This document shows, piece after piece, positions 2,916 through 40,607 of a stretch of 64,000 bases of DNA. The notes under the pieces were generated by a model, which saw nothing but the letters and a program-made list of their open reading frames with translations, had not been told where the DNA came from and did not search any database. Source of the DNA: Rhizobiaceae bacterium (lineage in GTDB: Bacteria > Pseudomonadota > Alphaproteobacteria > Rhizobiales > Rhizobiaceae); assembly GCA_023953775.1 (NCBI GenBank), contig JAMLJD010000003.1, positions 1-64,000 of the forward strand. Direction: 5' to 3'. Numbering within the stretch: position 1 is the stretch's first letter; every line of letters starts with the position of its first letter. A program made the position numbers and the translations under genes.

Positions 2916-4634
2916 ATGGCGAAGAAGACGAGCAGCCGCCGGGACGACGACAAGACGCTTGCAGACGAGATCGCCGAGGATGCAGCGCAGAACACGCTGG
3001 CGCTCAACCCTCTGGTCGGCGTCCGCTCCGAGGACCTGATGAACGCGGCCGGCGCGGTCGTGCGCGCCATTGCCGGGCAGCCGCAGAACCTCGTGCAGCA
3101 ATGGATGAGTTTTGCAGGCGAGCTGGGCAAGATCGCCACCGGGCAGTCGGAGATCGCCCCCGATCCCAAGGACCGGCGCTTCGCCGATCCCGCCTGGAAG
3201 TCGAGCGGCGTCCACAAGACGCTGATGCAGTCCTACATGGCGTGGGGCAAGGCGGTGACGGAGCTGGTGGCCAAGACAGATTTGCCGGACCAGGACGCGG
3301 CGCGCGCGCGCCTCGTCACCTCGATCTTCGTCGATGCCATGGCGCCGTCCAACAATCTGCTCGCCAACCCGACGGCCCTGAAGACGCTGGTCGACACCGG
3401 CGGCAAGAGTGCGGTCAGCGGACTCAAGAACTTCCTCGACGACATGACCCGCAATGGCGGCCTGCCGTCATCCGTCGACGCCTCCAAATTCAAGGTTGGC
3501 GAGAACCTTGCCAACTCGCCGGGCACGGTGGTCTTCCGCAACGATGTGCTGGAGCTCGTCCACTACACAGCGACGACGGACAAGGTCCATCAAAGGCCGC
3601 TGCTCGTGGTGCCGCCGCAGATCAACAAGTACTATTCGGTCGATCTGTCGCCGGACAAGAGCATGATCAAGTTCCTGCTCGCCAACGGCATCCAGCCCTA
3701 CTGCATCTCGTGGCGCAATCCGACGCCGGAGCATCGCGACTGGGGGCTCGACACCTACATCACTGCGCTCGACGAGGCCTGCGACGCGGCCCGCGACATC
3801 ACCGGCGCGGACACCGTCAACATCATGGGCTCGTGCTCGGGCGGCATCACGGTGTCTACCTATGTCGGCTGGCTGGCGGGCAAGGGCGAAAAGAAGATCA
3901 ACGCCGTGCTGCTCGCCGTGTGCGTGCTCGACACGATGGCTGCGACCGACAATGATTTCGCTGCGCTTGTGACGCCTGAAAGCCTGATGGCGGCGAAGCA
4001 GATGTCTGCGGCGCGCGGCATCCTCGACGGCCAGGACATGGCGAAGATGTTCGCCTGGATGCGGCCAAACGACCTCATATGGAACTACTGGGTCAACAAC
4101 TACCTGTTGGGAAACCAGCCGCCGGCCTTCGACGTGCTCTACTGGAACGCGGACACGACCCGGCTTCCGGCGCGACTGCACGCCGATTTCCTCGACCTGA
4201 TCTTCACCAACCCGTTCCTCAATCCGGGCAAGATGTCGATCCACGGCGTGCCGATCGACATGCGCAAGGTGAAGCACGAAGCCTATGTGATCGGTGGGAC
4301 GACCGATCACATCACGCCCTGGAAGGCCGTCTACCAGACCGCCCGTATCTTCGGCGACAAGACGCAGTTCATCCTGTCCAATTCCGGCCATCTGCAGAGC
4401 CTGCTCAACCCGCCCGGCAATCCGAAGGCCTGGTACGTCAAGGGCACGGCCAACAAGAAGGACGCCGATGCCTGGGCGGCCGGAGCCGAGAAGAAGGAAG
4501 GAAGCTGGTGGCTCGACTGGGCGGAGTATCTCAAGTCGCGGTCGGGCGACGAAGTCGATGCGCCGAAAGCGCCGGGAAACAAGACGTACAAGCCGCTCGG
4601 ACCCGCGCCGGGCACTTATGTGTTCGAGCCTTGA
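2916..4634 (+). CDS. phaC: Poly(3-hydroxyalkanoate) synthase, class I/II-like
   Basis: 572 residues, the usual size of single-subunit PHA synthases, which polymerise (R)-3-hydroxyacyl-CoA at the granule surface. The PhaC box is G-S-C-S-G-G with the nucleophile at Cys307. The general-base Asp lies in GGTTDHITPWK and the His in NSGHLQSLLNP. The segments PPQINKYY and ISWRNPTPEHRDWGLDTY closely recall the Pseudomonas medium-chain-length (class II) enzymes. The N-terminal 30 residues are highly charged and probably disordered. The ATG at 2916 follows GGGAGG. It sits between a MaoC dehydratase and a PhaZ-type depolymerase. Substrate chain length is inferred, not shown. Confidence 0.92.
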   Translation: MAKKTSSRRDDDKTLADEIAEDAAQNTLALNPLVGVRSEDLMNAAGAVVRAIAGQPQNLVQQWMSFAGELGKIATGQSEIAPDPKDRRFADPAWKSSGVHKTLMQSYMAWGKAVTELVAKTDLPDQDAARARLVTSIFVDAMAPSNNLLANPTALKTLVDTGGKSAVSGLKNFLDDMTRNGGLPSSVDASKFKVGENLANSPGTVVFRNDVLELVHYTATTDKVHQRPLLVVPPQINKYYSVDLSPDKSMIKFLLANGIQPYCISWRNPTPEHRDWGLDTYITALDEACDAARDITGADTVNIMGSCSGGITVSTYVGWLAGKGEKKINAVLLAVCVLDTMAATDNDFAALVTPESLMAAKQMSAARGILDGQDMAKMFAWMRPNDLIWNYWVNNYLLGNQPPAFDVLYWNADTTRLPARLHADFLDLIFTNPFLNPGKMSIHGVPIDMRKVKHEAYVIGGTTDHITPWKAVYQTARIFGDKTQFILSNSGHLQSLLNPPGNPKAWYVKGTANKKDADAWAAGAEKKEGSWWLDWAEYLKSRSGDEVDAPKAPGNKTYKPLGPAPGTYVFEP

Positions 4635-4668
4635 GCGCACCGCACCTGCATAAACGGGGGAACTGACC

Positions 4669-5502
4669 ATGGCCGTGGCCGAGAAGAAGCGCGGCCGCAC
4701 CGCGCAGGGTATCGACATCCGCATGATCGACGTCGACGGGCAGATGCTGCGCGTCGGAATTCGCGAGGGTGCATCGAAGCGGCCGCCGCTGATGATGTTC
4801 AACGGCATCGGTGCCAATCTCGAACTCGCCGAGCCGTTCATGCTGGCGCTGGACGACACCGGCACGATCATCTTCGACGTGCCGGGGGTCGGCGGCTCGC
4901 CGCTGCCGTCACTGCCCTACAGGCCCTCGACGCTGGCGCGCATGGCGCGGCGGCTGCTCGAGATTCTCGGCCACGAGCAGGCCGATATCTCCGGCGTGTC
5001 GTGGGGCGGCGGACTGGCGCAGCAATTCGCGCGACAGTATCCCGGCCATTGCCGCAAGCTGATACTGGCGGCGACCGCGCCGGGCTGGACCATGGTGCCA
5101 GGGTCGCCTTCGGTTCTGTCCAAGATGGCGAGCGTTCGCCGCTATACCGATCCCAGCTATATGCGGACCATCGCGGCCGACATATATGGCGGCGCGTTTC
5201 GCACCGACCCGACGCTGATTGCGCGCCATGCCACGGCGATGAAGGGCGCAACGCAGTACGGCTACACGCTGCAGCTTCTGGCGATGACGGGCTGGACCAG
5301 CCTGCCGTGGTTGTGGACGCTGCCGCAACCCACGCTGGTGATGGCTGGGACCGACGATCCGCTGGTCCCCGTGGTCAACGCAAAGGTCCTTGCCCGGATG
5401 ATCCCGAACGCGCGGCTGCATCTCGTCGACGAAGGGCATCTGTTCCTGGTCACGCAGCCGAAGGAATCGGCCGAGATCATCGAGGCCTTCCTGCGTGAAT
5501 AG
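4669..5502 (+). CDS. phaZ: Intracellular PHA depolymerase (PhaZ, Pseudomonas mcl type)
   Basis: 277-residue alpha/beta hydrolase. Residues FNGIGANLEL, FDVPGVGGS, ISGVSWGGGLAQQFA and EGHLFLV match my memory of Pseudomonas putida PhaZ strongly, in the same order and spacing. The nucleophile is Ser111 in G-V-S-W-G; the acid is in AGTDDPLVP and the base in EGHLF. The enzyme cleaves stored PHA to 3-hydroxy acids, letting the operon both make and mobilise polymer. The gap to phaC is 34 bp. It converges on the GST gene at 5551. The family call is firm; preference for medium-chain polymer is inference. Confidence 0.9.
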   Translation: MAVAEKKRGRTAQGIDIRMIDVDGQMLRVGIREGASKRPPLMMFNGIGANLELAEPFMLALDDTGTIIFDVPGVGGSPLPSLPYRPSTLARMARRLLEILGHEQADISGVSWGGGLAQQFARQYPGHCRKLILAATAPGWTMVPGSPSVLSKMASVRRYTDPSYMRTIAADIYGGAFRTDPTLIARHATAMKGATQYGYTLQLLAMTGWTSLPWLWTLPQPTLVMAGTDDPLVPVVNAKVLARMIPNARLHLVDEGHLFLVTQPKESAEIIEAFLRE

Positions 5503-6320: not shown

Positions 6321-7691
6321 CTAACCCAGAACCGATCCGACTGCTTCGGCTGTCTTGCCGACGATCTCGTCGGCTTCCGCACGCGTCAGGCATAGCGGCG
6401 GCGCGAAGCCCAGAATGTCGCCCTGCGGCATGGCACGCGCGATGATGCCGAGCTTGAGGAGCGCTGCGGACATCTGCGGGCCGATCTTCCTGGATGGATC
6501 GAAGAAGGTGCGCTTGTCCCTGTCCTCGACGAATTCGACGGCGCACAGCATACCTTCGCCACGCACGTCGCCGACATGAGCATGCCCGGATAGTGCGTCC
6601 TTCATCGCGGCATTGAAGTACGCGCCGGTCTCGCCGGCGTTCTTCACAAGGCCGAGGCTGTCGATCAGCTTCAGATTGGCGACGCCGGCCGCGGCGCCGA
6701 TCGGATGCGCGGAATAGGTCCAGCCGTGACCGATGGGGCCATTCTCGTCGGTGCCCTTCTCCAGCACTTTCCAGACCTTGTCGCCGACGATCGAACCGGA
6801 AAGCGGCGCGTAGGCCGAAGTCAGGCCCTTGGCGATGGTGATGATATCGGCCTCAATGCCGTAGTGGCCGGAGCCGAACATCGAACCGAGACGGCCGAAG
6901 CCGGTCACCACTTCGTCGGCGATGAGCAGGATGTCGTGCCTCTTCAGCACCTTCTGGATCGCCTCCCAGTAGCCCGCTGGCGGCGGCACGATACCGCCGG
7001 TGCCCAGAACCGGTTCGCCGATGAAGGCCGCGATGGTGTCAGCGCCCTCGCGTTCGATCAGATGTTCCAGCTCGTTGGCGCAGTGGGCGACGAAGTCGGC
7101 CTCGCTCATGCCGAGGTCGGGCCGGCGGTAGTAGTAGGGCGCCTCGGTGTGGAGGATCCGGTCGAGCGGCAGGTCGAACTTCTTGTGGAACAGCTCGAGA
7201 CCGGTCAGCGATCCGGTGACGAGGCCCGAACCGTGATAGCCGCGCCAGCGCGAGATGATCTTCTTCTTTTCCGGGCGGCCGAGGATGTTGTTGTAGTACC
7301 AGACCAGCTTGACGTTGGTCTCGTTGGCGTCCGATCCACCGAGGCCGAAATATACCTTGGACATGTTTTCCGGTGCGCGGTCGAGCACCATCTTGGCGAG
7401 TGTGATCGAGGCTTCGGTGCCATGGCCGACATAGGCGTGGTAATAGGCGAGCTCCTTCGCCTGTTCAGCGATCGCCTCGGCGATTTCCTTGCGGCCATAG
7501 CCGACATTGACGCAGTAAAGCCCGGCGAAGGCATCGAGCAGGCGGTTGCCGTCACGGTCCTCGATATGAACGCCCGAGCCGCCGGTAATGATGCGATTGG
7601 CGCTCTCGCCGCGCGCATGCTGGCCGAGATGGGTCGAGGGATGGAAAAAGTTCTCGCGGTCCCACTGGTCCAGCGTGTCGTTCCTCAGCAT
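6321..7691 (-). CDS. doeD: Class III aminotransferase, probable diaminobutyrate transaminase of ectoine catabolism (DoeD/Atf)
   Basis: 456-residue PLP-dependent class III aminotransferase. The PLP region reads [15 protein letters not shown], and the Schiff-base lysine is in [15 protein letters not shown]. The size fits DoeD, which in Halomonas moves the amino group of L-2,4-diaminobutyrate to give aspartate semialdehyde. By fold alone it could equally be an omega-amino acid:pyruvate transaminase. The placement as last gene of an ehu-eut-doeX-doeC operon, as atf follows ssd in marine Rhodobacterales, supports the diaminobutyrate role. The gap to the preceding gene is 10 bp. Family firm, substrate inferred from context. 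Confidence 0.8.
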
Positions 7692-7701
7692 TCTTTTTCT
7701 C

Positions 7702-8916
7702 CTATCTGATCGTGGGGCCGTTCGGGGTGCGGGTCAGGACCTCGGCGCGGTCGGGGCCGAGCAGAACCGCGTTTGAAAGGAAGTAGTCGCCACGTCCGGT
7801 TCCCATGAGCCAGGACAGGATGTGAAAACTCATACCCTGGCGGATCTCCAGCTCGGAATCGTGGCGCAGGCCGGTCACCTTGTTGCCGCCGGTCCATGAG
7901 GGCGGAAAGCCGATACCGACGCAGTAGCCGCAATGGTGACGGCGGTAGCGCGAGAGCCCGGCATCGTCGACGACCGCCTGCCACGCCGCGTAGACGTCAC
8001 GTGCCCTTATACCCGGCTTCAGCGCCGCAAGCACGGCGTCGAAGGCGCTCCTCGCCGTTTCGGCCATCCGCGCGTCCTCGTCGCGGATCGTACCGACGTG
8101 AACGAGCCGTCCCAACGGAGCGTGATAGCGCGACACGCAGCCGGACAGTTCCAGAAAGACGGGTTCGCCGGCGCGGTATGTACCTTCGCCCCAGGTCGCG
8201 TGCTCCTCGCCGAGGCGCGAGCCGGGCCGGATAAACGGCCCGAAGCCCGGTGCCGCGCCGCCGGCGCGGATCATGGCCGCGTGGCATTCCGCGACCACAT
8301 CGCGTTCGCTCGCGCCATCATGGATCGCCTCCATCGCGGCAGCAGCGGCCGCGTCGGATACCTCTGCAGCCCTGCGCATGAGGGCCTGCTCGGCGGGCGA
8401 CTTGACCAGCCGAAGATCGTCGGCCATTCCGGTGATGTCGACCCATTCCGCATCGTCGATGCTCTGCCGCAACGCATGACCGAAGCCGTAGGAGTGGCCT
8501 GCGGACCAGGTCTCGACGCCGATGCGGCGCAGGCCGGGCGAGCGGCCGTCGACGGCGTCGATCACCTCCGCGAGGACGGCCTTGGAGCGTTCCTTGGCGC
8601 CGAAGCTGTCCCGCAGCGTGCGCACGGCGAGGTCTGCCACTGTCTCGCTGTCATCGTGGCCGCGAAAAAGCGCGTTGCGGACCTGCTTCTCGATCGAGAC
8701 CCGTTCCATCTGGCGCGTGATCAGCACCATCTCGCCGTCCGCCGGGACGACAAGAAGATGCGGCGCGAAATAGCCCCAATGGTCGAGCCCGGTGAGGTAG
8801 AAGATGTTCTCCGGAGTGGAGAAAAGCGCGATCTCGAGATCGCGCTCCGCCATCTTTCCGCGGATCGACGCCAGCCGGTTGCCCAGTTCCTCGTCGTTGA
8901 AGGGATTTGCGAACAT
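7702..8916 (-). CDS. Creatinase-fold (M24) hydrolase, divergent paralogue of ectoine hydrolase DoeA
   Basis: 404 residues: an N-terminal creatinase-type domain and a C-terminal pita-bread domain. It lacks the metal-ligand Asp pair of true M24 peptidases. Instead, around residues 254-267, it has [14 protein letters not shown], with Glu256 in place of the first Asp. The DoeA-type gene at 16293 has the matching F-F-E-I-A-G-C-Y-R-R-Y-H-V-P. Both also share GI-x-(F/Y)-PP-x-W and G-M-x-FH near the C-terminus. Thus it is probably a ring-opening amidohydrolase of the ectoine hydrolase group and not a dipeptidase. It sits between doeC and doeD with gaps of 7 and 10 bp. Its substrate (hydroxyectoine or another cyclic amidine) is unknown. 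Confidence 0.8.
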
Positions 8917-8923
8917 CCGGTAC

Positions 8924-10408
8924 CTAGCCCGCGTCGCGGCAGATATATTTCACGTTGGTGTAGGCCTCCATGCCGAGCCGCGAGCCTTCTCGTCCGAGGC
9001 CGGCCTGTTTGACCCCGCCGAACGGAACCGGCGCGCCGGTGATCTTCGTGCGATTGACGGCGACCATGCCGAATTCGAGCCGGCGCGAAAGCCGTGCGAT
9101 GCGAGCCGGATCGGTGGTGTGCAGATAGGCCACGAGACCGGTTTCGGTGTCGTTGGCACGCGAAACGGCGTCATTCTCGGCATCGAAACAGGTGAAGGCC
9201 GCGACCGGGCCGAATGTCTCTTCGCGGAAGATCGCGGCATCATCGGACACGTCGGCGAGGATGGTCGGCTCGAAGAAATTCGGGCCAGCGTTGCTCGCAC
9301 GGCCGCCGACGACCAGCCGTGCACCCTTCGACAACGCATCGGCGACATGTGCCTCCTGCTTGGCGACGGCCTTTTCGTTGATCAGCGGACCGATGTCGGG
9401 ATGGGTCATGCCATTCCCGACGCGCATCGCCCGAACCTTGTCGGCAAACGCACGCACGAAGGCATCGTAGATCGACCGTTCGATGTAGAATCGGTTCGCC
9501 GCGAGGCAATCCTGACCCGACGTCGCGAATTTGGCAGCGATCGCGCTGTCGACGGCGCGGTCGAGATCGCAGTCCGCAAATGCGATGAAGGGCGCGTGTC
9601 CGCCCAGTTCCATGACCAGTTTCTTGATCGTCGGCGCGCTCCGCGCGTAGAGCAGCCGTCCGATTTCGGTTGAACCGGTGAAGGAAAGCACGCGCACATT
9701 TCGCGCCGCGGTCATGGCGCCCACGACTTCGGGCGCCTCGCCGGTCACGATATTGAACACGCCGGCGGGAATGCCAGCGCGCTCGGCGAGTTCGGCCAAC
9801 GCCAGCGCCGAGAACGGCGTTTCGGAGGACGGGTGCGCCACGACCGTGCAGCCGGCGGCGAGCGCGGCGGCGGCTTTTCGGGTGAGCATGGCCGAGGGGA
9901 AGTTCCAGGGCGTCACGAGCCCGGCCACGCCGGCCGGCTGGCGCAGAACCTGCATGTCGGCGCCGGGAAGATGCGACGTCACGCTCTCGACATTCACGCG
10001 CTTCGCCTCCTCGGCGTAGAATTCGACGAACGAGGCGGCGTAGTCGATCTCGCCCTGGGCTTCCTGCAACGGCTTGCCCTGTTCAAGCACCATCAGCCGG
10101 GCGAGATCCTCGCGGGCCGACAGGATGAGCTCGTGCCAGTCGCGCAGGATGCGGGCGCGCTCCTGCGGCAACCGTGCGGACCAGGGCCCGAAGGCGGCGT
10201 GGGCGGCATCAATCGCGGCAGCGGTCTCGGCTGCCGAGAGCGCGGGAACGCAGCCGATCCGCCCACCCGTCGCCGGATCGGTCACGTCGACGAAGGCGCC
10301 GTCTTCCGCCGCGATCCAGGAGCCGTCGATATAGGCATATTCCCGGAATAGCCGGGGATCTTTGAGGACGGAGAGGGAAGCCTTTTCGAGGGCTGCAAGC
10401 GCTGACAT
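8924..10408 (-). CDS. doeC: NAD(P)-dependent aldehyde dehydrogenase, probable DoeC/Ssd (aspartate-semialdehyde oxidation)
   Basis: 494 residues, standard length for the succinate-semialdehyde dehydrogenase-like ALDHs. VTPWNFPSAMLTRK is the cofactor-binding segment, ELGGHAPFIAF holds the general-base Glu, and SGQDCLAANR holds the catalytic Cys. In ectoine degradation DoeC oxidises aspartate semialdehyde to aspartate, feeding the TCA cycle. The ATG at 10408 follows GAGGAAG; a farther upstream ATG (10453) is less likely. It follows the doeX regulator by 116 bp and precedes the DoeA paralogue by 7 bp. Family certain; the aspartate-semialdehyde role comes from context. Confidence 0.82.
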   Translation of the reverse strand: MSALAALEKASLSVLKDPRLFREYAYIDGSWIAAEDGAFVDVTDPATGGRIGCVPALSAAETAAAIDAAHAAFGPWSARLPQERARILRDWHELILSAREDLARLMVLEQGKPLQEAQGEIDYAASFVEFYAEEAKRVNVESVTSHLPGADMQVLRQPAGVAGLVTPWNFPSAMLTRKAAAALAAGCTVVAHPSSETPFSALALAELAERAGIPAGVFNIVTGEAPEVVGAMTAARNVRVLSFTGSTEIGRLLYARSAPTIKKLVMELGGHAPFIAFADCDLDRAVDSAIAAKFATSGQDCLAANRFYIERSIYDAFVRAFADKVRAMRVGNGMTHPDIGPLINEKAVAKQEAHVADALSKGARLVVGGRASNAGPNFFEPTILADVSDDAAIFREETFGPVAAFTCFDAENDAVSRANDTETGLVAYLHTTDPARIARLSRRLEFGMVAVNRTKITGAPVPFGGVKQAGLGREGSRLGMEAYTNVKYICRDAG

Positions 10409-10524
10409 GACGGTCTTCCTCGCGGTTCGGGTGCTCGCCCGAATCTGCGTCATGTCGCGGCGAAATTCCTTTTGCTTGCGGCTCGTGGCGCCAATGTTTC
10501 GTTGGTAATGCGGGTGCGCAGCCA

Positions 10525-11022
10525 TCAGTTCTTCGGCGGTGCGTCGGCGCCCGTCAGGAACTCGAGCGGCAAGCGCGCCGACTGCTTTACCGGCTTGGTG
10601 ACGATATAGGTGAAGTAGCGCACCATGCCGACCCTGGATTCGAGAAGGTGGTCGACGAGGCGCTGGTAGGAATCGATGTCCCGGGTAACGACCTGCAGGA
10701 TATAGTCGAAGCCGCCGCCGACCGCCCAGCAGGCGACGATCTCCTCGAGGCGTTCGACCGTGCGTTCGAATATCCGGAAGTTCTCCGAACGATGGCCCTC
10801 GAGTTCGGCGGCCATGAAGATCACGACGTGGGGCGCGATCTTCCTGAGCGCGATGTCGGCATGGTAGCCGGTGATGATGCCAGCCTCTTCCAGCCGCTTG
10901 AGACGTTCCCAGCAAGGTGCGGCTGTCAGGTTCACGCGCTCGGCGAGGGCGGCCTTGGATATTCTTCCCTCCGTGCTGAGGATGGACAGGATCTTGAGGT
11001 CGCGGTCGTCGAGCTTGAGCAT
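10525..11022 (-). CDS. doeX: Lrp/AsnC-family regulator of the ectoine operon (DoeX/AsnC type)
   Basis: 165 residues: N-terminal winged helix-turn-helix (LDDRDLKILSILSTEGRISKA... within residues 4-60, including CWERLKRLEEAGII) and a C-terminal RAM/ligand-sensing domain (EIVACWAVGGGFDYILQVV). The position inside an ectoine operon and the length match DoeX of Halomonas and AsnC of Sinorhizobium/Ruegeria clusters, which respond to diaminobutyrate-type intermediates. It is spaced 1 bp from eutC, so it is co-transcribed with its presumed targets. A 21-bp AT-centred palindrome in the ehuB/doeA promoter (16171-16191) is a candidate binding site. That link is inference. Confidence 0.88.
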   Translation of the reverse strand: MLKLDDRDLKILSILSTEGRISKAALAERVNLTAAPCWERLKRLEEAGIITGYHADIALRKIAPHVVIFMAAELEGHRSENFRIFERTVERLEEIVACWAVGGGFDYILQVVTRDIDSYQRLVDHLLESRVGMVRYFTYIVTKPVKQSARLPLEFLTGADAPPKN

Positions 11023-11023
11023 G

Positions 11024-12016
11024 TCAGGCGGTCAGCGTCGACCCGGCGCCGGCGTCGCGCGCGCGGACCAGTGCGAAGGTGGCGATCGCCGTGTCCTGTG
11101 CGCCGGTGCCCGTCAGGTCGCAGATGGTGACCTGGTCGTCGCGTGCGCGGCCGGTTCGAGCGCCGGCAACGATCTCGCCGAGTTCCGGCGGTGCGCCGCC
11201 CTGCCAGAGGCCGGCAGCGATGGCGCTGCGCAACTCACCGAGCTCCTCCGTCTGCGAGACCCGGTCCGCGACGTAGAGGTCGGCTTGTACGAGCGCTTCG
11301 GCCTCGATCTCGTTCTTGCCGTGCTGGTCCGAGCCCATCGCGGTGACATGCAGGCCGGGATGCAGCCATCCGGCCTTGAGGATCGGTTCGGTCGCTGGCG
11401 TGGTGGTTATGACGAGCTGGCTTTCGGCCACGACGCGCTGCGGATTGTCATCGGCGCGGGCGTCTATGCCAAGATCGTGCGACAGGTCGGCCGCGCAAGC
11501 CTTCGCCTTCTCGATGTCGCGGCCCCATACCAAAGCCCGGCTGAAGGGACGGACCAGATGAGCGGCCTTGATCTGGAGCCGGGCCTGAACGCCGGTGCCG
11601 AGCACGCCGGCGGTTTCGACCGTCGACGGCGCCAGATGCCGGGCGGCGACGGCCCCCGCCGCCGCCGTGCGGATGTCGGTCAGATAGCCATTGTCGAGAA
11701 GCAGGGCCTGGACCAGTCCCGTCGTCGCGGAGAACAGGATCATCAGGCCGTTGAGGCTCGGAAGCCCAAGCTTCGGATTGTCGAAGAAGCCGGGGCTGAC
11801 CTTGATGGCGAAACCATCGAAGCCGGGAATATAGGCAGTCTTTATGTCGACCTCGCCATTCGCCTCGGGGATCGCCATGGACAGGATTGGCGGCATGACG
11901 ACTTTGCCCGTCGCCAGCGCCGCGAAGGCGTCCTCGACGACCTTCAGCGCGTCGAGGTCGAGCGCGACGCAGCTTCGCAGGTCGGCCTCGGTCAGGATGG
12001 TGATGTCATGCGGCAT
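11024..12016 (-). CDS. eutC: Ornithine cyclodeaminase-family protein, EutC of hydroxyectoine utilisation
   Basis: 330 residues of the ornithine cyclodeaminase/mu-crystallin family. It has the Rossmann segment GVLGTGVQARLQIKA and the family features KVSPGFFDNPKLGLPSLNG and DLTGTGAQDTAIATFA. In ectoine clusters this family member is named EutC and is assigned with EutA and EutB to the hydroxyectoine branch; the chemistry is not settled. It overlaps the end of eutB by 11 bp. No eutA homologue is present in the window, which is unusual for a eutB-eutC pair. Confidence 0.85.
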   Translation of the reverse strand: MPHDITILTEADLRSCVALDLDALKVVEDAFAALATGKVVMPPILSMAIPEANGEVDIKTAYIPGFDGFAIKVSPGFFDNPKLGLPSLNGLMILFSATTGLVQALLLDNGYLTDIRTAAAGAVAARHLAPSTVETAGVLGTGVQARLQIKAAHLVRPFSRALVWGRDIEKAKACAADLSHDLGIDARADDNPQRVVAESQLVITTTPATEPILKAGWLHPGLHVTAMGSDQHGKNEIEAEALVQADLYVADRVSQTEELGELRSAIAAGLWQGGAPPELGEIVAGARTGRARDDQVTICDLTGTGAQDTAIATFALVRARDAGAGSTLTA

Positions 12017-13016
12017 AGGCGTTGCCTTTCAGCGAGAGGTCGCCGAGCGTGACGTCGCGGCCGTTCACGATGTCGGTGAAGACATGCATGTCGACATTGC
12101 GGCCGGTGATGATCGTGGCGACCGGGCCGCCGAAATCCGGCAGGTGGCCGGCCAGCAGTGCCGCGGCGCCGACCGCGCTGGCGCCCTCGCAGACGATGCG
12201 GTCCTCGTAATAATGCGTCTGCATTGCGCGATAGATGTCATCCTCCGTGACGAGGACGATGTCGTCGAGCAGGTCGCGGCAGAGTGGGAAGGAAAGCCGG
12301 TTTTCGAGGCCGATGCCGCCGCCGAGGGAGTCGGCGAGGCTCTCGACTTCTTGGACCTCGACCGGATGGCCGGCCCCAATCGAGGCATGCATGGCCGCAC
12401 CGCGGTCCATGGTGATGCCGATGACGCGGATCGACGGCTTGATCGCCTTGGCTGCAAGCGCGACTCCGCCGGCGAGTCCGCCGCCGGAAAGCGGCACCAG
12501 GAGCGCGGCGAGATCGGGCCTGTCCTCGAGCAGTTCGAGACCGATGGTCCCCTGACCAGCGATGACGTGCGGGTCGTCGAAGGGCGATATCTCGACAAGC
12601 CCTTCGTAATGTGCGAGCCGCTGGCTTTCAGCAAGGGCGTCGTCCTGGCTGCGCCCGACGATGCGCACCTCCGCGCCGAGTGCACGGATGCCGTCGACCT
12701 TGGCTTGCGGCACCAGCGAGGACATACAGATGACAGCGCGCATCCCGCGTGCACGGGCGGCATAGGCGACGCCGCGGCCATGATTGCCGGTCGAGCAGCA
12801 GGTGACGCCCGGCGCCGAGGCGTCAAGCCTGAGGATGGCGTTGGCCGCGCCGCGCAGCTTGAACGCGCCCGTCGGCTGTCCAAGCTCGAGTTTCAGCAGA
12901 ACATCATGGCCGGCAACCGAGCCCAGACGAGGCGAGGGGACCAGCGGTGTCCGGACCGCCATGCCTGAAATCGCGCGGGCGGCCGACAGGATATCGGCCA
13001 GGGTGATCGGGTACAT
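12006..13016 (-). CDS. eutB: Threonine dehydratase-like PLP enzyme, EutB of hydroxyectoine utilisation
   Basis: 336-residue fold-type II PLP enzyme. The Schiff-base lysine is in TGAFKLRGAANA, the substrate loop in CCSTGNHGRGVAYAA, and the phosphate-binding glycine loop in LSGGGLAGGVAL. It lacks the C-terminal ACT regulatory domain of biosynthetic IlvA, as EutB proteins do. In ectoine clusters EutB is assigned to dehydration of a hydroxylated intermediate of hydroxyectoine breakdown. The 3-bp gap to the ABC ATPase gene and the overlap with eutC put it in one transcript with the importer. A classical IlvA is encoded separately at 53796. Confidence 0.87.
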   Translation of the reverse strand: MYPITLADILSAARAISGMAVRTPLVPSPRLGSVAGHDVLLKLELGQPTGAFKLRGAANAILRLDASAPGVTCCSTGNHGRGVAYAARARGMRAVICMSSLVPQAKVDGIRALGAEVRIVGRSQDDALAESQRLAHYEGLVEISPFDDPHVIAGQGTIGLELLEDRPDLAALLVPLSGGGLAGGVALAAKAIKPSIRVIGITMDRGAAMHASIGAGHPVEVQEVESLADSLGGGIGLENRLSFPLCRDLLDDIVLVTEDDIYRAMQTHYYEDRIVCEGASAVGAAALLAGHLPDFGGPVATIITGRNVDMHVFTDIVNGRDVTLGDLSLKGNAYAA

Positions 13017-13019
13017 GCG

Positions 13020-13796
<777 letters not shown>

Positions 13797-13806
13797 GGCG
13801 GAATTC

Positions 13807-14475
13807 CTACTGAAGATGGTAGCGGCGATTGAGCCAGAACGCGGTCGCCTGAACGATCGCTGAGGCGACGAGGCTGAACAGGAGGTAGAACGCGCCCGCC
13901 ATGGTGATCGCCTCGATGTAGCGGTAGTTCTCGGCACCGAAGTTCTTGGCCTGCTGGAGCATTTCCAGGATCGCGATGGCGGCGAGGATCGGCGTGTCCT
14001 TGAACATGCCGATGAAATAGTTGCCGAGCGCGGGCACCACGGGGGGGATCGCCTGCGGCAGGATGATCGCCCGCCAGGTCCGCGATCGCGACAGGTTGAG
14101 TGCGATGCAGGCCTCCCACTGGCCGCCCTCGACGGCCTCGATGCCGGCCCGGTAGACCTCGGAGCAGTAGGCCGCGTAGTGGATGCCCAGCACACCGATG
14201 CCGGCGATCCAGGCCGGAATGACGATGCCGAACTGTGGTCCGACGAAGTATACGAAGAAGACCTGGAGCAGCAGCGGCGTCGAGCGGATGAATTCCACCG
14301 TCTCGGCCATTGCCACCGAAACGAGCCGGTTCGGCGAGCGGCGGACCAGCGCGAAGACCAGCCCGAGCACCAGCGCGATCGCGAAGCCTATGAGCGTGGC
14401 CTGGATCGTGACCAGCGCACCCCTGTAGAGATAGGGGAATGCTGCCCAGACATAGGTCCAGTCCCAGATGCTCAT
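13807..14475 (-). CDS. ehuD: Ectoine ABC importer permease (EhuD)
   Basis: 222 residues with about five membrane segments and the HisM/GlnP-type BPD domain. The EAA loop region reads [42 protein letters not shown] is the usual periplasmic/transmembrane transition of this family. The start overlaps the end of ehuC by 4 bp (ATGA), so the two permeases are translationally coupled and probably pair as a heterodimer with EhuA. Confidence 0.87.
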
Positions 14476-15143
14476 GCCAGCATCTCCCGGACATAGGCGC
14501 GCGACATGCGGCGTTCGAGCCAGCGCACGAGCGGCGTGATGATCGCGCGGGCAAGCAGGTAGTAACCGAACAGCGCGATGGCGAAGAAGAGCAGATAGTT
14601 GCCGGTGGCGTCGGCGGCGAGCTTGGAGGCGGTGGTGAGTTCGGTGATCGTGATGAAGAAGATCAGCGACGTGCCCTTGAGCAGTTCGATGAGCAGGTTG
14701 CCCCAGGACGGCAGCATCGCGCGGATCGCCTGCGGCAGGATGATGCGGCGCATCATCTTCAGCCTCGGGAAGTTGAGCGCCGTGCTCGCTTCATACTGGC
14801 CGCGCTCGACACCCTGGATCGCGGCGCGGACGAGTTCGGCGCCATAGCCGGATACGTTCATGCCGACGCCGAATATGGCTACCGTCCAGGGCGACAGCGC
14901 CAGGCCGAATATCGGCAGGACGAAGAACCACCAATAGAGCTGAACGAGAAGCGAGGTGCCGCGGAAGAACTCGATATAGGCGACGCCGAACCATTTCAGT
15001 GGCCACCGTGGCGAAACCCGGATCAGTCCGACCGCAAGTCCGAACACGATCGCAACCACCGACGCTCCGAAGGTGACCACCATCGTCACGCCTGCACCAC
15101 GCACCAGTGCGGCCACGCTGAAGCCGAGTGCAAATTCGTTCAC
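14472..15143 (-). CDS. ehuC: Ectoine ABC importer permease (EhuC)
   Basis: 223-residue membrane protein of the PAAT permease family. It contains FFRGTSLLVQLYWWFFVLP and the EAA-like segment RGQYEASTALNFPRLKMMRRIILPQA, then a stretch of hydrophobic helices. It is the first permease after ehuB, separated by 95 bp that include a perfect hairpin (15204-15229), and overlaps ehuD. Role from family and context: membrane channel for ectoine and 5-hydroxyectoine. Confidence 0.87.
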   Translation of the reverse strand: MNEFALGFSVAALVRGAGVTMVVTFGASVVAIVFGLAVGLIRVSPRWPLKWFGVAYIEFFRGTSLLVQLYWWFFVLPIFGLALSPWTVAIFGVGMNVSGYGAELVRAAIQGVERGQYEASTALNFPRLKMMRRIILPQAIRAMLPSWGNLLIELLKGTSLIFFITITELTTASKLAADATGNYLLFFAIALFGYYLLARAIITPLVRWLERRMSRAYVREMLA

Positions 15144-15238: not shown

Positions 15239-16090
15239 CTACATACCGCCCTTGCAGAGCTCCGCGGTCGTCGTGCCGTCGGGCAGGTTCGCCTTGGAGT
15301 AGCCGTACTTGCCGACCGACTCCATCATCTCGTCGGAGCCGACATAGTCCTTCAGCGCGGCATTGAAGGCGTCGACCTCGGCCTGCTGGTTGGGCAGGAA
15401 GGCGAGACCCGGATAGCCGTCGATGACAGGCGGGGTGAAGGGATCGGCCAGTTCGACGGCGTCGTCCTTGTCGGCGAATTCCTTCATGGTGAAGTAGGTG
15501 CCGCTTCCGGCGGCCGCGCGGCCGGACTTGACCGCCTGCAGGATCTCGGCCGGGCCGGCGACCTGCATGATCTTGTCGTCGGCGATGCCGACTTCCTTGG
15601 CGTTCTTCACGGTGTTGTAGCCGGCGCCGGTGACGAAGGTCAGGCCCTTGTCGCGCACGTCATCGAAGGAGTGCAGGTCTTCGGGATTGCCCTTGGGTAC
15701 CAGAAGCGCGTCGGCGAAGGTGCCGAGCGGTTCGGTGAACAACGCATTGCGGCAACGCTCGGGCAGGATGTACATGCCGCCGGTGATGATGTCGAAGCGG
15801 CCGGCCTGCAGACCGGGGATCAGGGAACCCCACTCGGTAACGATCGGCTCGATCTTGGTCGTGCCCATCTTCTCCAGAAGGTCGAGCGTCATGGCGTTGA
15901 CGAAGCCCAGCGGCTCGTTGTTCTCGCCCGGATAGGCCCAGGGAATCTCGTTGGAGAAACCGATCCGCACGGTCTCGCCGTTCTTGATCTTGTCGAGCAG
16001 CGACTGCGCCTTCGCCGGGCCCGGCATTGCGCCGAAGGTGAATGCGGCCAGACCTGCCGCGAGAATCGTCTTCAGGAATTTCCGTCTCAT
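15239..16090 (-). CDS. ehuB: Ectoine/hydroxyectoine-binding periplasmic protein (EhuB)
   Basis: 283 residues with a signal peptide (MRRKFLKTILAAGLAAF... ending near residue 28, APAKAQ-like site). It is a family 3 solute-binding protein. The segment EWGSLIPGLQAGRFDIITGG and the following LPERC align by eye with Sinorhizobium EhuB, and the C-terminal YGYS...TTTAELC also matches. The protein captures ectoine in the periplasm for EhuCDA. The start has AGGGGAAA upstream. The promoter region is shared with doeA and contains three palindromes, so uptake and the first catabolic step are likely co-regulated. Confidence 0.88.
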   Translation of the reverse strand: MRRKFLKTILAAGLAAFTFGAMPGPAKAQSLLDKIKNGETVRIGFSNEIPWAYPGENNEPLGFVNAMTLDLLEKMGTTKIEPIVTEWGSLIPGLQAGRFDIITGGMYILPERCRNALFTEPLGTFADALLVPKGNPEDLHSFDDVRDKGLTFVTGAGYNTVKNAKEVGIADDKIMQVAGPAEILQAVKSGRAAAGSGTYFTMKEFADKDDAVELADPFTPPVIDGYPGLAFLPNQQAEVDAFNAALKDYVGSDEMMESVGKYGYSKANLPDGTTTAELCKGGM

Positions 16091-16292: not shown

Positions 16293-17477
16293 ATGCCTGC
16301 GTCGTCTCTTCCCTTCTCCGAAATCGAATATGCGCGCCGTCTCAACCTCGTCCGGAAAGCCATGGAAAAGGACGGAATCGACGTGCTTTTCGTGGAAGAC
16401 CCGTCGAACATGGCTTGGCTGACGGGCTATGACGGGTGGTCGTTCTACGTGCACCAGGGCGTGCTGGTCTTCCACGATGCCGATCCGATCTGGTGGGGGC
16501 GGGAGCAGGACGCCAACGGCGCGGTGCGGACAGTGTACATGGATGATACGCGGGTGCTGAGCTATCCCGACCACTATGTACAATCGACGAAGATTCATCC
16601 GATGGAGACCCTTGCGGCCATCATCCGCGAGCATGGATACGGCGAAAAACGCGTCGGGCTGGAGCTGGAAAACTACTATTTTTCCGCCAAGGCCTATCTG
16701 GTGCTCCAGCGCGAACTGCCCGATGCGACGCTGGTCGACGCGACGGCACTGGTGAATTGGCAGCGCGCGGTCAAGTCGGACGAGGAAATCGTCTTCATGC
16801 GCCGCGCCGCGCGCATCTCCGAGAAGATCGTCGACGGCATCATGGAGCGCGTCGAGCCAGGGCTCAAGAAGAACGACCTGGTGGCCGAGATTTATGCCGA
16901 CGCGGTGCGCGGCGTCGACGACGACTGGGGTGAATATCCCGCCATCGTGCCGCTGCTGCCGAGCGGTTCGGATGCGGCTGCGCCCCACCTGACCTGGGAC
17001 GGGCGTCGCTTCGAATCCGGACAGGCAACGTTCTTCGAGATCGCGGGCTGCTATCGCCGTTATCATGTGCCGTTCTGCCGGACGGTCTTTCTCGGCGATC
17101 CACCCCACTACATGGTCGAGGCTGAAAAGGCTCTGGTGGAAGGGCTCGACGCAGGGCTGGAGGCCGCGCGTGCCGGAACGCGGGCCGGCGCGGTTGCCGA
17201 CGCGCTCTACAAGTCGTTGGAGAAGGCCGGCATCAAGCGTGACGGACGCTGCGGCTATCCGATCGGCATCTCCTATCCGCCGGACTGGGGTGAGCGCACG
17301 ATCTCCTTCCGGCGCGAGGACGACACGATCCTGAAGCCGGGCATGACATTCCACTTCATGCCGGGGCTGTGGATGAGCGACTGGGGCCTCGAGATCACAG
17401 AGAGCATCCTGATCCGTGAGGAGGGCGCGGCTGAATGCCTGTGCAGCAGGCCGCGGAAGCTGTACGTCAAGAATTGA
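16293..17477 (+). CDS. doeA: Ectoine hydrolase (DoeA/EutD), creatinase-fold
   Basis: 394 residues. The N-terminal sequence DPSNMAWLTGYDGWSFYVHQ is the hallmark of ectoine hydrolases, which open the ectoine ring to N-acetyl-2,4-diaminobutyrate in the cytoplasm. Like other members it lacks metal-binding Asp residues: the region reads F-F-E-I-A-G-C-Y-R-R-Y-H-V-P with Glu249 where metallopeptidases have Asp. The ATG at 16293 is chosen because GGAGG lies 5 bp upstream; an upstream ATG at 16143 would run through the palindromes. It is divergent from ehuB and followed after 13 bp by an M20 deacetylase, the expected next step. Confidence 0.92.
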   Translation: MPASSLPFSEIEYARRLNLVRKAMEKDGIDVLFVEDPSNMAWLTGYDGWSFYVHQGVLVFHDADPIWWGREQDANGAVRTVYMDDTRVLSYPDHYVQSTKIHPMETLAAIIREHGYGEKRVGLELENYYFSAKAYLVLQRELPDATLVDATALVNWQRAVKSDEEIVFMRRAARISEKIVDGIMERVEPGLKKNDLVAEIYADAVRGVDDDWGEYPAIVPLLPSGSDAAAPHLTWDGRRFESGQATFFEIAGCYRRYHVPFCRTVFLGDPPHYMVEAEKALVEGLDAGLEAARAGTRAGAVADALYKSLEKAGIKRDGRCGYPIGISYPPDWGERTISFRREDDTILKPGMTFHFMPGLWMSDWGLEITESILIREEGAAECLCSRPRKLYVKN

Positions 17478-17490
17478 CCGACGCGATGCC

Positions 17491-18651
17491 ATGGCGATGA
17501 TCGAAAAGACGACCAGTATCCTTTCTGACCTGATCGGGTTTCCAACCGTCTCGTCCGACAGCAATCTCGAACTGATCGCCTATGCCGGCGATGCGCTCAG
17601 CAGCCTGGGCGCCCGGATATCGATGTCGCTCGACGAAAGCGGCACGAAGGCGAACCTGTTCGCCACGCTGGGCGGCGATGGCGACGGCGGCATCGTTCTG
17701 TCCGGCCATTCCGACGTCGTTCCCGTCGAGGGCCAGCAATGGGCGAGCGACCCGTTCGTCATGGAGGAGCGTGGCGGACTGCTCTACGGCAGGGGCGCCT
17801 GCGACATGAAAGGCTTCATTGCCTGCTGCCTCGCCATGGCACCGCGATTTGCTGAGACCGAACTCCGGCGCCCGCTGCATTTCGCGTTCACCTACGACGA
17901 GGAACTCGGTTGTCTCGGTGCAAGGGCGTTGGTCGCAGAACTCGGGAAGGCCGGGGTAAAACCCGCCGTCGCAATCATCGGCGAGCCCACGGAGATGCGG
18001 ATAATAGAGGGGCACAAAGGCTGCTTCGAGTATACAACCGAGTTCACCGGGCTCGAGGGGCACGCCTCGCAACCCGATCTCGGCGTCAACGCGGTTCAAT
18101 ATGCGGTCCGCTACATCGCCAGGCTGATGGCACTCGCCGAGGATCTGAAGGCACGTGTGCCCGATGCGTCGCGGTTCGACCCGCCCTGGACGACAATCCA
18201 GGTCGGGCGCATCGCGGGAGGCGTCGCGCACAACGTCATACCCGGACAGTGCGCGATCGACTGGGAGATGAGGCCGGTGCAGGCATCGGACGCCGATTTC
18301 GTGAAGTCCGACATCGCAGCCTATGTCGACCAGGTGTTGCGGCCCGCGATGCGGGCTATCTCGCCGGACGCAGACATAGTGACGCGGACGATCGGTGAGG
18401 TCGACGGGCTGCAGCCGGTGGATGAATCCGAGGCGCGCCGCATCGTCGCCGAACTGACCGGGGCCAACAGCGCGGAACTGGTCGCCTTCGGCACCGAAGC
18501 AGGTCTGTTCCAGAAATTCGGAATCTCGACCGTCGTGTGCGGGCCTGGTTCGATCGCTCAGGCCCACAAGCCGGACGAGTACGTGTCGATCGACCAACTG
18601 CAGGCTTGCCTTGCCATGCTCGAACGCCTCAAATCGCGTATGGCGGCCTGA
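17491..18651 (+). CDS. M20 (ArgE/DapE-type) deacetylase, candidate N-acetyl-diaminobutyrate deacetylase (DoeB2 role)
   Basis: 386 residues, the size of acetylornithine deacetylase ArgE. Metal ligands are visible in SGHSDVVPV (His and Asp), GRGACDMKG, the catalytic EE in YDEELGCLGA, GEPTEMR and the C-terminal His in GPGSIAQAHKPDEY. The dimerisation insert starts with GLEGHAS. Acetylornithine and N-acetyl-2,4-diaminobutyrate differ by one methylene. In its position after doeA it most simply replaces the M14-family deacetylase EutE/DoeB, which is absent here. A general ArgE function cannot be excluded. Start ATG 17491, with a second in-frame ATG at 17497. Confidence 0.8.
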   Translation: MAMIEKTTSILSDLIGFPTVSSDSNLELIAYAGDALSSLGARISMSLDESGTKANLFATLGGDGDGGIVLSGHSDVVPVEGQQWASDPFVMEERGGLLYGRGACDMKGFIACCLAMAPRFAETELRRPLHFAFTYDEELGCLGARALVAELGKAGVKPAVAIIGEPTEMRIIEGHKGCFEYTTEFTGLEGHASQPDLGVNAVQYAVRYIARLMALAEDLKARVPDASRFDPPWTTIQVGRIAGGVAHNVIPGQCAIDWEMRPVQASDADFVKSDIAAYVDQVLRPAMRAISPDADIVTRTIGEVDGLQPVDESEARRIVAELTGANSAELVAFGTEAGLFQKFGISTVVCGPGSIAQAHKPDEYVSIDQLQACLAMLERLKSRMAA

Positions 18652-18654
18652 GAC

Positions 18655-19383
18655 GTGAAGCGGTCCAGCATGACGGGCGGAGAACCCCAAGACGAAAGCC
18701 GAGGTGCTGCGCGCGAGCGCTACGAGCGGATCTATGCGATCCTGCGGAACCGCATATGTCTGCTCGACTATCCTCCAGGCCAGCGGTTGCGCGAGGAGGA
18801 CCTGGCGGAGGAGTTCCATGTCAGCCGCACGCCATTGCGGCGGGTTCTGGGACGGCTCGAGGACGAGGGATTGCTGCGATCCGTGCATGGCGTCGGCACG
18901 ATCGTCACCGACATCGACATTGACGGGCTGCAGCAGGTCTACCAGCTTCGCGTCGAACTGGCCGAACTGATCGGCAAACTGTCGCCGGTGAGTCCCCAGG
19001 AGGCGACGGTGGCAAAATTCCGGGCTCTTCTGGCCCGGGCGGCACGACTGCTCGACGAGCCGGACGCGCGGGAATTCGCCAGCGTTAACATGGAGTTCAC
19101 GCACCTTCTTGCCGGGCTTACCGCCAACGAACCACTGCGCGAGATCAACGAGCGGCTCTATTACCAGACCACGCGTATCTGGCTGAAGACCGCATCGAAA
19201 CTCAGCCAGTACAGGGAGATGCTGGTCACGGAAATGACGATTTTCCATCGCGAGATCGCTGACATCGTGGCCGCGATCGAGATCGGCAATCTCGAGTCAG
19301 TCGGCCACATCCGCCGTGCTCATATCGCGATGAGCTTCCAGCGTCTGCACGAACAGGCGCACTCGGCCGATCAGTCGCCGTAG
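18655..19383 (+). CDS. GntR-family (FCD/FadR-type) regulator of the ectoine island
   Basis: 242 residues with a GTG start (an ATG 15 bp later is possible). The N-terminal winged helix contains LREEDLAEEFHVSRTPLRRVLGRLEDEGLL, about residues 45-75. The C-terminal FCD helical bundle includes VNMEFTHLLAGLTANEPL and FHREIADIVAAIEIGNLES, with the His/Asp-type ligand pocket usual for FCD domains. It is 3 bp after the deacetylase gene. Known ectoine clusters use EnuR, a MocR-type protein with an aminotransferase domain; this small FCD protein is different. It converges on the ALDH16 gene with a 13-bp overlap. Confidence 0.87.
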   Translation: MKRSSMTGGEPQDESRGAARERYERIYAILRNRICLLDYPPGQRLREEDLAEEFHVSRTPLRRVLGRLEDEGLLRSVHGVGTIVTDIDIDGLQQVYQLRVELAELIGKLSPVSPQEATVAKFRALLARAARLLDEPDAREFASVNMEFTHLLAGLTANEPLREINERLYYQTTRIWLKTASKLSQYREMLVTEMTIFHREIADIVAAIEIGNLESVGHIRRAHIAMSFQRLHEQAHSADQSP

Positions 19384-39491: not shown

Positions 39492-40607
39492 TCAAGCGGG
39501 CTGCCCGCCGACGATCGACAACTCGCGCGGAAACGACGTCAGTGAACGGCATCCATCGGGCTCGATCAGCACGTCGTCCTCGATCCGCACACCGATCTCG
39601 CCGGGGCGATAGAGGCCGGGCTCGATGGTGAGGATCGTTCCCGCAACGAGCGGGACATGATTGCCGATCATCACTTGCGGGGCCTCGTGGACGTCGAGCC
39701 CGAGGCCGTGTCCGGTCTTGTGGACGATGAGGTCGGCGAACGGCGATGCCGCGAGCACGCCAGTGACGGTTTCGTCGAGATCGTGTGCGGTGAGTTCGGG
39801 GCAGGCCACGGCTCTGCCCTTCGTATTGGCGGCAAGCACCGTTTCGTAGATACGGGCATGCTGGTCGCTGGCGTGCTCGCAGAAGAACGTGCGCGTGATG
39901 TCGGCATTGTAGCCGCCAAGATGGGCGCCGAAGTCGATCAGCAGAGGCTCGCCTGCCGCCAGAGGGCGTTCGCCGGGCACGCCGTGCGGATTGGCTGCGT
40001 TGCCGCCCGCCAGCACCAGCGGATCGAAGGCAAAGCCGTCGGCTCCGTTGGCCAGCATCCGCATCTTCAGCAGACCCTGGATCTCGGCCTCGCTCATGCC
40101 GCTCCTGACTTCGGCCAGCGTTTCGGACAGGGCCGTCTCGCTGATGCGGATCGCCTTTTCGATGATCGCGACTTCTTCCGCCGTCTTGGCGAGCCGCAGA
40201 TCGATGAGGTCCGTGTCGGCCATCGCCACGCTGCCCTGGCCGAAATGGCGGCGGAGCGCCTCGGATTCGAAGACGCGCATGCGCTGTCCCTCGACGCCGA
40301 TACGGATCGACCCCAGCGCGGCTGCGGACTCGGCAAAGGCATCGTCGTAGCCGTCGCTGTCCTGCCAGAACCACGTGCTGGCCTGCGGGAAGGTCTCGCG
40401 CCATTTCTCGCGTTCGAGCTCGGGGACGATCCCGCAAACCTCGCCCGCGTCGTCCACCATCAGCAAGGTGGGGCGTTCCATCAGATGGAACTGCAGGCCG
40501 GAGAGATAATAGAAGTTAGGCCCCGGAACGAATGCCGCCGCCTTCAATCCGGCCTTGCGCAGCAATTCGCCTAGCCTGGTGCGGCGGGCCGCAAAGATGT
40601 CGGTCAT
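39492..40607 (-). CDS. M24 metallopeptidase (Xaa-Pro dipeptidase-like) of the HyuAB island
   Basis: 371 residues. Unlike the two ectoine-hydrolase-type proteins in this window it keeps the metal ligands: LLIDFGAHLGGYNADITRTFF (Asp225 and Asp236), HKTGHGLGLDVHEAP (His), TIEPGLYRPG (Glu) and GVRIEDDVLI (Glu). It should be a genuine two-metal aminopeptidase or amidase acting on Xaa-Pro-like bonds. The start overlaps the end of the GntR gene by 4 bp (ATGA). Context suggests it finishes breakdown of the compound handled by HyuA/HyuB, such as a cyclic or N-blocked dipeptide. The substrate is inference. Confidence 0.87.
   Translation of the reverse strand: MTDIFAARRTRLGELLRKAGLKAAAFVPGPNFYYLSGLQFHLMERPTLLMVDDAGEVCGIVPELEREKWRETFPQASTWFWQDSDGYDDAFAESAAALGSIRIGVEGQRMRVFESEALRRHFGQGSVAMADTDLIDLRLAKTAEEVAIIEKAIRISETALSETLAEVRSGMSEAEIQGLLKMRMLANGADGFAFDPLVLAGGNAANPHGVPGERPLAAGEPLLIDFGAHLGGYNADITRTFFCEHASDQHARIYETVLAANTKGRAVACPELTAHDLDETVTGVLAASPFADLIVHKTGHGLGLDVHEAPQVMIGNHVPLVAGTILTIEPGLYRPGEIGVRIEDDVLIEPDGCRSLTSFPRELSIVGGQPA

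Follow-up and report, generated by a model that had tools for sequence, protein, structure and literature searches.

The DNA analyzed here, a 64,000-nucleotide stretch from a Rhizobiaceae bacterium (hereafter, the window), carries on its minus strand a tightly packed operon in the order ehuB-ehuC-ehuD-ehuA-eutB-eutC-asnC-doeC-M24x-doeD. The gene we refer to as M24x occupies 7702–8916, and the initial annotation, which had proposed a frame with a creatinase fold there, had its coordinates exactly right: the frame runs for 404 codons from ATG to stop. Its placement between doeC and doeD was also correct, with the end of doeC at 8924 and the start of doeD at 7691, leaving 7 nt and 10 nt, respectively, on the two sides of M24x. 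Repeats at the locus were trivial only.

The remaining genes of the operon were assigned as follows. EhuB, an ectoine-type binding protein (15239–16090), scored 210.2 bits against TIGR02995 (cutoff 190.9) and had 2q88 as its best PDB match; the permeases EhuC (14472–15143) and EhuD (13807–14475) were recognized by gene order and tblastn matches to annotated EhuC and EhuD, and the ABC ATPase EhuA (13020–13796) by 71–91% identity to EhuA from sister loci and from annotated ones. The threonine-dehydratase-like eutB (12006–13016) had 57–61% identity to annotated eutB of rhizobial plasmids and an E value of 9.3e-131 for TIGR02991 in its own genome, while the ornithine cyclodeaminase-like eutC (11024–12016) was identified by tblastn and an order matching that of loci in which eutC is annotated or lies in an operon with annotated eutB. 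An Lrp/AsnC regulator gene (asnC/doeX, 10525–11022) was assigned with Pfam and NCBIfam. The semialdehyde dehydrogenase gene doeC/ssd (8924–10453, with an approximate start chosen from the start candidates) was assigned from NCBIfam SSADH-type matches and position, and the aminotransferase gene doeD/atf (6321–7691) from NF005684 (846.6 bits, cutoff 687) and 84–89% identity to sister-locus doeD. At 2916–5502, bordering the ectoine locus, are genes encoding a PhaC-type polymerase and a poly(3-hydroxyalkanoate) depolymerase.

Divergent from this operon, on the plus strand, are a canonical ectoine hydrolase gene, doeA/eutD (16293–17477; TIGR02993 616.8 bits, cutoff 613; 6twk E 2e-150), a deacetylase gene in the doeB slot (17491–18651) and a GntR/FCD regulator gene (18655–19383; Pfam) of a kind present with most sister loci. 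The deacetylase is an M20 protein of the ArgE type and not EutE, exceeding the NCBIfam cutoffs for acetylornithine deacetylase (NF005710, 491.2 vs 412 bits; TIGR01892, 386.6 vs 297.7 bits), and canonical eutE (TIGR02994) was not found in the genome of the window. Neither was eutA (TIGR02990), although eutB and eutC are present; that search had no positive among control genomes, and the same model identified eutA above cutoff in 89 related genomes.

M24x belongs to the creatinase/M24 fold superfamily, with both Creatinase_N (PF01321, 65.5 bits) and Peptidase_M24 (PF00557, 109.3 bits) above cutoff as well as the shared fold. Two NCBIfam models ranked above all others, NF038259 (DoeA_2; 203.6 bits over residues 6–374) and TIGR02993 (EutD/DoeA; 152.5 bits), yet both scores fell far short of the membership cutoffs of 575 and 613 bits, the latter of which the DoeA of the window passes. 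The best PDB sequence matches were the EutD structures 6twk and 6twj (E 9e-38; profile E 1e-52); prolidases and creatinases followed far behind. The structure prediction and comparison with EutD that the initial annotation had called for agreed with this: an AlphaFold2 model built with 25 homologues (pLDDT 86.4, pTM 0.87) had EutD as its top Foldseek match (6yo9/6twk, E 3.8e-29, TM 0.83) and creatinase as the next, and the catalytic set aligned. An insertion of ~22 aa (residues ~105–127), modeled with low pLDDT, is present in the forms from the window, Chelativorans and Nitratireductor and missing from the 382-residue Mesorhizobium forms.

In an IQ-TREE phylogeny of 68 sequences, all 28 M24x sequences formed one clade (100/98) apart from the EutD clade (100/99), which held PDB EutD, the canonical DoeA type of the window and a further DoeA-like group. 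With the two clades so deeply separated, we rejected the idea that M24x is a recent duplicate of the doeA of the window; the two proteins have 29% identity, consistent with the high divergence noted initially. Overall, we regard M24x as a new subfamily of predicted EutD-type hydrolases.

The active site was compared over an alignment of 28 M24x sequences. EutD residues H238, W241, E255, R262, Y263, H264, R269, Y329, W339 and H361 are conserved in both clades, the M24x equivalents being H239, W242, E256, R263, Y264, H265, R270, Y331, W341 and H365; the exceptions were roughly two divergent members, with Gln instead of H265 and Lys instead of R263. His239 (codon at 8200–8202, minus strand) aligns with both EutD H238 and the catalytic His of creatinase. 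EutD reportedly opens ectoine via a covalent enzyme intermediate on Glu255, as Mais et al. are said to have found in 2020. Of the D, D, H, E, E metal-ligand set of M24 metallopeptidases (prolidase/aminopeptidase P), the two Asp positions are taken by E256 and P267 in M24x and other ligand positions are also changed, and on this ground we rejected M24x as an ordinary metal peptidase. M24x thus resembles EutD/DoeA (TIGR02993; 6twj, 6twk, 6yo9) in its fold, its His/Glu/Tyr/His set, its lack of M24 metal ligands and its ehu, eutBC and doeCD gene neighborhood; it differs in its low identity, its score far below the family cutoff, its separate clade and its frequent sarcosine oxidase (sox) partner.

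The pocket also differs. The N-terminal loop of the creatinase/EutD fold reaches the active site of the partner subunit. In EutD this loop (GYDGWSFYVHQ) has the fixed residues Y46, G48, S50, F51, Y52, H54 and Q55, whereas M24x has a different loop in which L44, H46, G48, Y49, F50, P52 and H53 are fixed, and an invariant R230 stands where EutD has Pro. Our reading is that M24x would have kept the chemistry of EutD and changed its substrate. As the pocket is unlike that of DoeA, the substrate would be another ectoine-family compound than the one DoeA opens.

A six-frame scan of the whole window found E-x-[AS]-G-[CV]-x-x-R-[YF]-H-x-P in two frames only, M24x and DoeA (EIAGCYRRYHVP), and the stricter form E-x-[AS]-G-C-x-x-R-Y-H-x-P was common to these two and to no other frame, upholding the DoeA-type signature first noticed in M24x. 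In M24x the motif lies at 8116–8151 on the minus strand (E256 to residue 267, equivalent to EutD E255 to P266 in the 6twk alignment). The M24 protein at 39492, initially named as one with a real metal site, does possess it (LLIDFGAHLGGYNADITRT, HKTGHG, EPG and IED). Most of the E...RYH signature was, in addition, present in other M24 clades (L011, L021, L181, L182 and L105); since these share its Glu and His, the signature alone is no proof of an ectoine function. A housekeeping-looking M24 paralogue in the same genome (contig C100; L187:1031–2179) retains the Glu and His of the signature and has Arg at the position of the catalytic His239, and is perhaps not a hydrolase.

To the initial annotation, a lack of co-occurrence with ectoine genes in other genomes would have spoken against a role of M24x in ectoine catabolism. 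A contig scan of genomes identified 63 homologous loci, for which all gene counts refer to a distance within 10 kb, from Rhizobiales, Dongiaceae, Rhodospirillaceae, Roseobacteraceae, Devosia, Tistlia, Geminicoccus, Halomonas and Paraburkholderia. Genes for ectoine uptake or degradation, one or more, were present in 59 of the 63, so such a lack was not observed, with ehuA in 54, doeC in 28 and doeD in 28; the co-occurrence with eutB or eutC that had been proposed for survey was seen in 33. Two contexts recurred. In the first (the window, Chelativorans and Nitratireductor), M24x lies within a eutBC-doeC-doeD operon. In the second (Mesorhizobium, Sinorhizobium and Shinella), the arrangement is gntR-ehuADCB | DoeA-like M24 - M24x - soxB-soxD-soxA-soxG, and a deacetylase gene, doeC and doeD are usually absent nearby. 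Both contexts are joined in Sinorhizobium, and on a Shinella plasmid the second is a cluster apart from the eutB locus, ~97 kb away. The EhuB of the second context scored 310.9 bits against TIGR02995 (cutoff 190.9), and in alignments with 2q88 the EhuBs of the two contexts match at its aromatic box, Glu and Arg, which we take to be the ectoine-contacting residues.

In eight loci (L049, L053, L055, L083, L086, L089, L092 and L095) M24x was the only EutD-like M24 seen, which indicates that it does not need DoeA; on the same evidence we rejected M24x as an obligatory DoeA partner. The survey also revealed a second DoeA-like group (L052:8734–9921, L101:7786–8967 and ~30 other loci), which has 44–50% identity to canonical DoeA, scores below the TIGR02993 cutoff and has the EutD-type loop; it immediately precedes M24x in sox-type clusters, and in some eutBC clusters it replaces eutD. 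A third EutD-like M24 clade (L105:8953–13391 and L181) has as neighbors aminotransferase and aldehyde dehydrogenase genes, or an Ehu-like transporter and M20 genes, and possibly belongs to another solute pathway.

Sarcosine oxidase was a recurrent partner. SoxB was encoded in 35 of the 63 loci, starting 11–40 nt downstream of M24x in 28 of them (gaps measured between tblastn match ends), and the other 28 loci had no soxB within 10 kb. SoxB and SoxA exceeded their NCBIfam cutoffs, SoxD fell just below its own, and the GcvT folate domain is retained in SoxA. On the SoxB phylogeny, copies linked to M24x were scattered among ordinary SoxBs, requiring four changes at the fewest, with at least three forced by supported branches. 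These separate placements indicate that the association arose more than once, and a link drawn from several Sox lineages points to an N-methylated product. In addition, 26 of the sox loci had no eutB or eutC within 10 kb, so M24x cannot be regarded simply as a component of the hydroxyectoine branch. The operon of the window itself has no sox genes, and the three SoxBs of its genome are encoded elsewhere, in unrelated places, and do not group with the M24x-linked ones.

Several loci extend this picture. L095 reads BCCT - M24x - soxBDAG - beta-eliminating lyase - aldehyde dehydrogenase and L089 reads M24x - BCCT - soxBDAG - M20; both clusters are devoid of any ectoine gene, and in these two and in L083 M24x is the sole EutD-like enzyme seen. 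In L089, from Paracoccus methylarcula, M24x is immediately preceded by a urease alpha subunit gene and one of the UreG/CobW type (L089:5100–8795). L102 encodes a threo-3-hydroxyaspartate ammonia-lyase-like enzyme (below the cutoff of that model) and an aspartate dehydrogenase, which may point to a hydroxylated carbon skeleton. L092 has no sox genes; downstream of M24x, its opposite strand encodes a protein with a GCV_T folate domain together with a flavin amine oxidoreductase (L092:11412–14219).

In the described pathway, EutD opens both ectoine and 5-hydroxyectoine, EutE deacetylates the product, Atf and Ssd complete its conversion to aspartate, and EutABC are required for hydroxyectoine (PMC8739950, PMC13188858). 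H. elongata has no eutA, and the resemblance of DoeA to creatinase was pointed out in 2011 (PMC3187862). From the predicted fold, the catalytic residues, the missing metal ligands, the separate clade, the pocket loop, the operon and the recurrent Sox linkage that we observed, we infer the chemistry, a methyl group and an order of steps. A small ectoine-type zwitterion would be imported by EhuABCD. His239 and Glu256 of M24x would then attack the amidinium carbon without a metal, in the manner of EutD/DoeA, to yield an amide and a free amine. Our leading candidate for the substrate is N-substituted, specifically N-methylated: a derivative of ectoine or hydroxyectoine. Opening of its ring would leave a secondary N-methyl amine for demethylation by the folate-linked, sarcosine-oxidase-type SoxBDAG, and a deacetylase, DoeD, DoeC and EutB/EutC would complete the breakdown.

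We consider that M24x is probably an EutD-type amidine hydrolase with a substrate other than that of DoeA. The explanation as a whole, in which a metal-free amidine hydrolase acts on another solute of the ectoine family and Sox N-demethylates the product, is our best one and has a little less than an even chance of being right. The N-methyl version of the substrate is plausible but tentative, and the literature we searched contained no N-methylated natural ectoine, which counts against it, as do the 28 loci lacking soxB and the sox-free operon of the window. The same searches, including those for Mesorhizobium creatinase and sarcosine oxidase and for creatine and ectoine, found no description of the M24x subfamily or of its sox linkage. 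Of the function originally suggested, the EutD-type, non-metal M24 hydrolase of ectoine catabolism is supported, while 5-hydroxyectoine or an ADABA isomer as substrate was not established; the sox link in 35 of the 63 loci and the 26 sox loci without nearby eutB/eutC shifted the odds on both.

The alternative that survives best, although we regard it as unlikely, is a second hydrolase for 5-hydroxyectoine or a stereoisomer of it, which would make the EutA step unneeded in clusters lacking eutA. In its favor, none of the 63 M24x loci has eutA, about half carry the eutB/eutC required for hydroxyectoine use, the genome of the window has these genes without eutA, and in L070, L084, L085, L094 and L178 M24x lies immediately upstream of eutB, where R. 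sophoriradicis has eutA. Against it, EutD itself already opens 5-hydroxyectoine, and the 26 loci that pair M24x with sox have no eutB/eutC nearby. Among 395 genomes of the family, M24x was found in ~30, eutB above cutoff in 202 and eutA above cutoff in 89, and in the genomes with both M24x and an over-cutoff eutA the two were on different contigs or megabases apart (lists read by eye). Many eutB clusters lacked both genes (lists again read by eye), and one genome (L174) has an M24x fragment near a eutA-eutBCDE operon. The last two observations weakened a strict replacement of eutA by M24x, which, given the many clusters without either gene, we kept as a rival only.

Less probable still is that M24x is an EutD-derived, creatinase-like enzyme that produces sarcosine from creatine or some other acyclic N-methyl amidine, the sarcosine then being oxidized by Sox. 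M24x has the creatinase fold, the catalytic His and the metal-free character of creatinase (1chm, 7yto), which is its next fold match after EutD; its pairing with sarcosine oxidases recurs in different lineages, the BCCT-M24x-sox clusters of L095 and L089 lack ectoine genes, and a urease operon adjoins M24x in L089. That urease neighbor, however, was seen in just one of the 63 loci, and creatine would leave the doeC/doeD/eutBC linkage unexplained. Creatinase E262 and E358, presumably the guanidinium-binding Glu residues, align with G269 and L367 of M24x, and the positions of the EutD-type E256, H265 and H365 are occupied by N, Y and S in creatinase. With the key Glu residues absent, we rejected M24x as a creatinase proper.

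We think it improbable that M24x deacetylates an ADABA isomer in place of EutE. Canonical eutE is absent from 49 of the 63 loci in addition to the genome of the window, and two-eutD clusters without eutE, the second eutD given no function, were described in 2026 in Thermodesulfobacteriota and Bacillota (PMC13188858). Those putative clusters share with ours a second EutD homologue in an ectoine-type setting, but belong to other phyla and have another gene order. Against this reading, M24x occurs alongside eutE in 14 loci and an M20 deacetylase in 15, and a metal-free, amidine-type active site would be unusual machinery for a plain amide. That M24x is an ordinary metal-dependent Xaa-Pro dipeptidase, as the PGAP label of its homologues ('Xaa-Pro peptidase family protein') and the common fold might suggest, is very improbable in view of its altered metal-ligand positions and tight linkage to ectoine genes.

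Returning to a metal-free hydrolase coupled to N-demethylation, its widest form is speculative, though a serious possibility: M24x would mark an unrecognised compatible-solute branch that opens an undescribed natural N-methylated ectoine-like osmolyte, with dedicated import by Ehu or BCCT and folate-linked demethylation by SoxBDAG. M24x and EutD would offer a natural experiment in which one metal-free active site changes its substrate through one rewritten loop. If this reading is true, bacteria of soils, rhizobia and marine bacteria would be feeding on an ectoine-family solute that has so far gone unsought and for whose discovery the M24x-sox clusters would provide a genetic handle, and the label 'Xaa-Pro peptidase' would be mistaken for many proteins of Rhizobiales.
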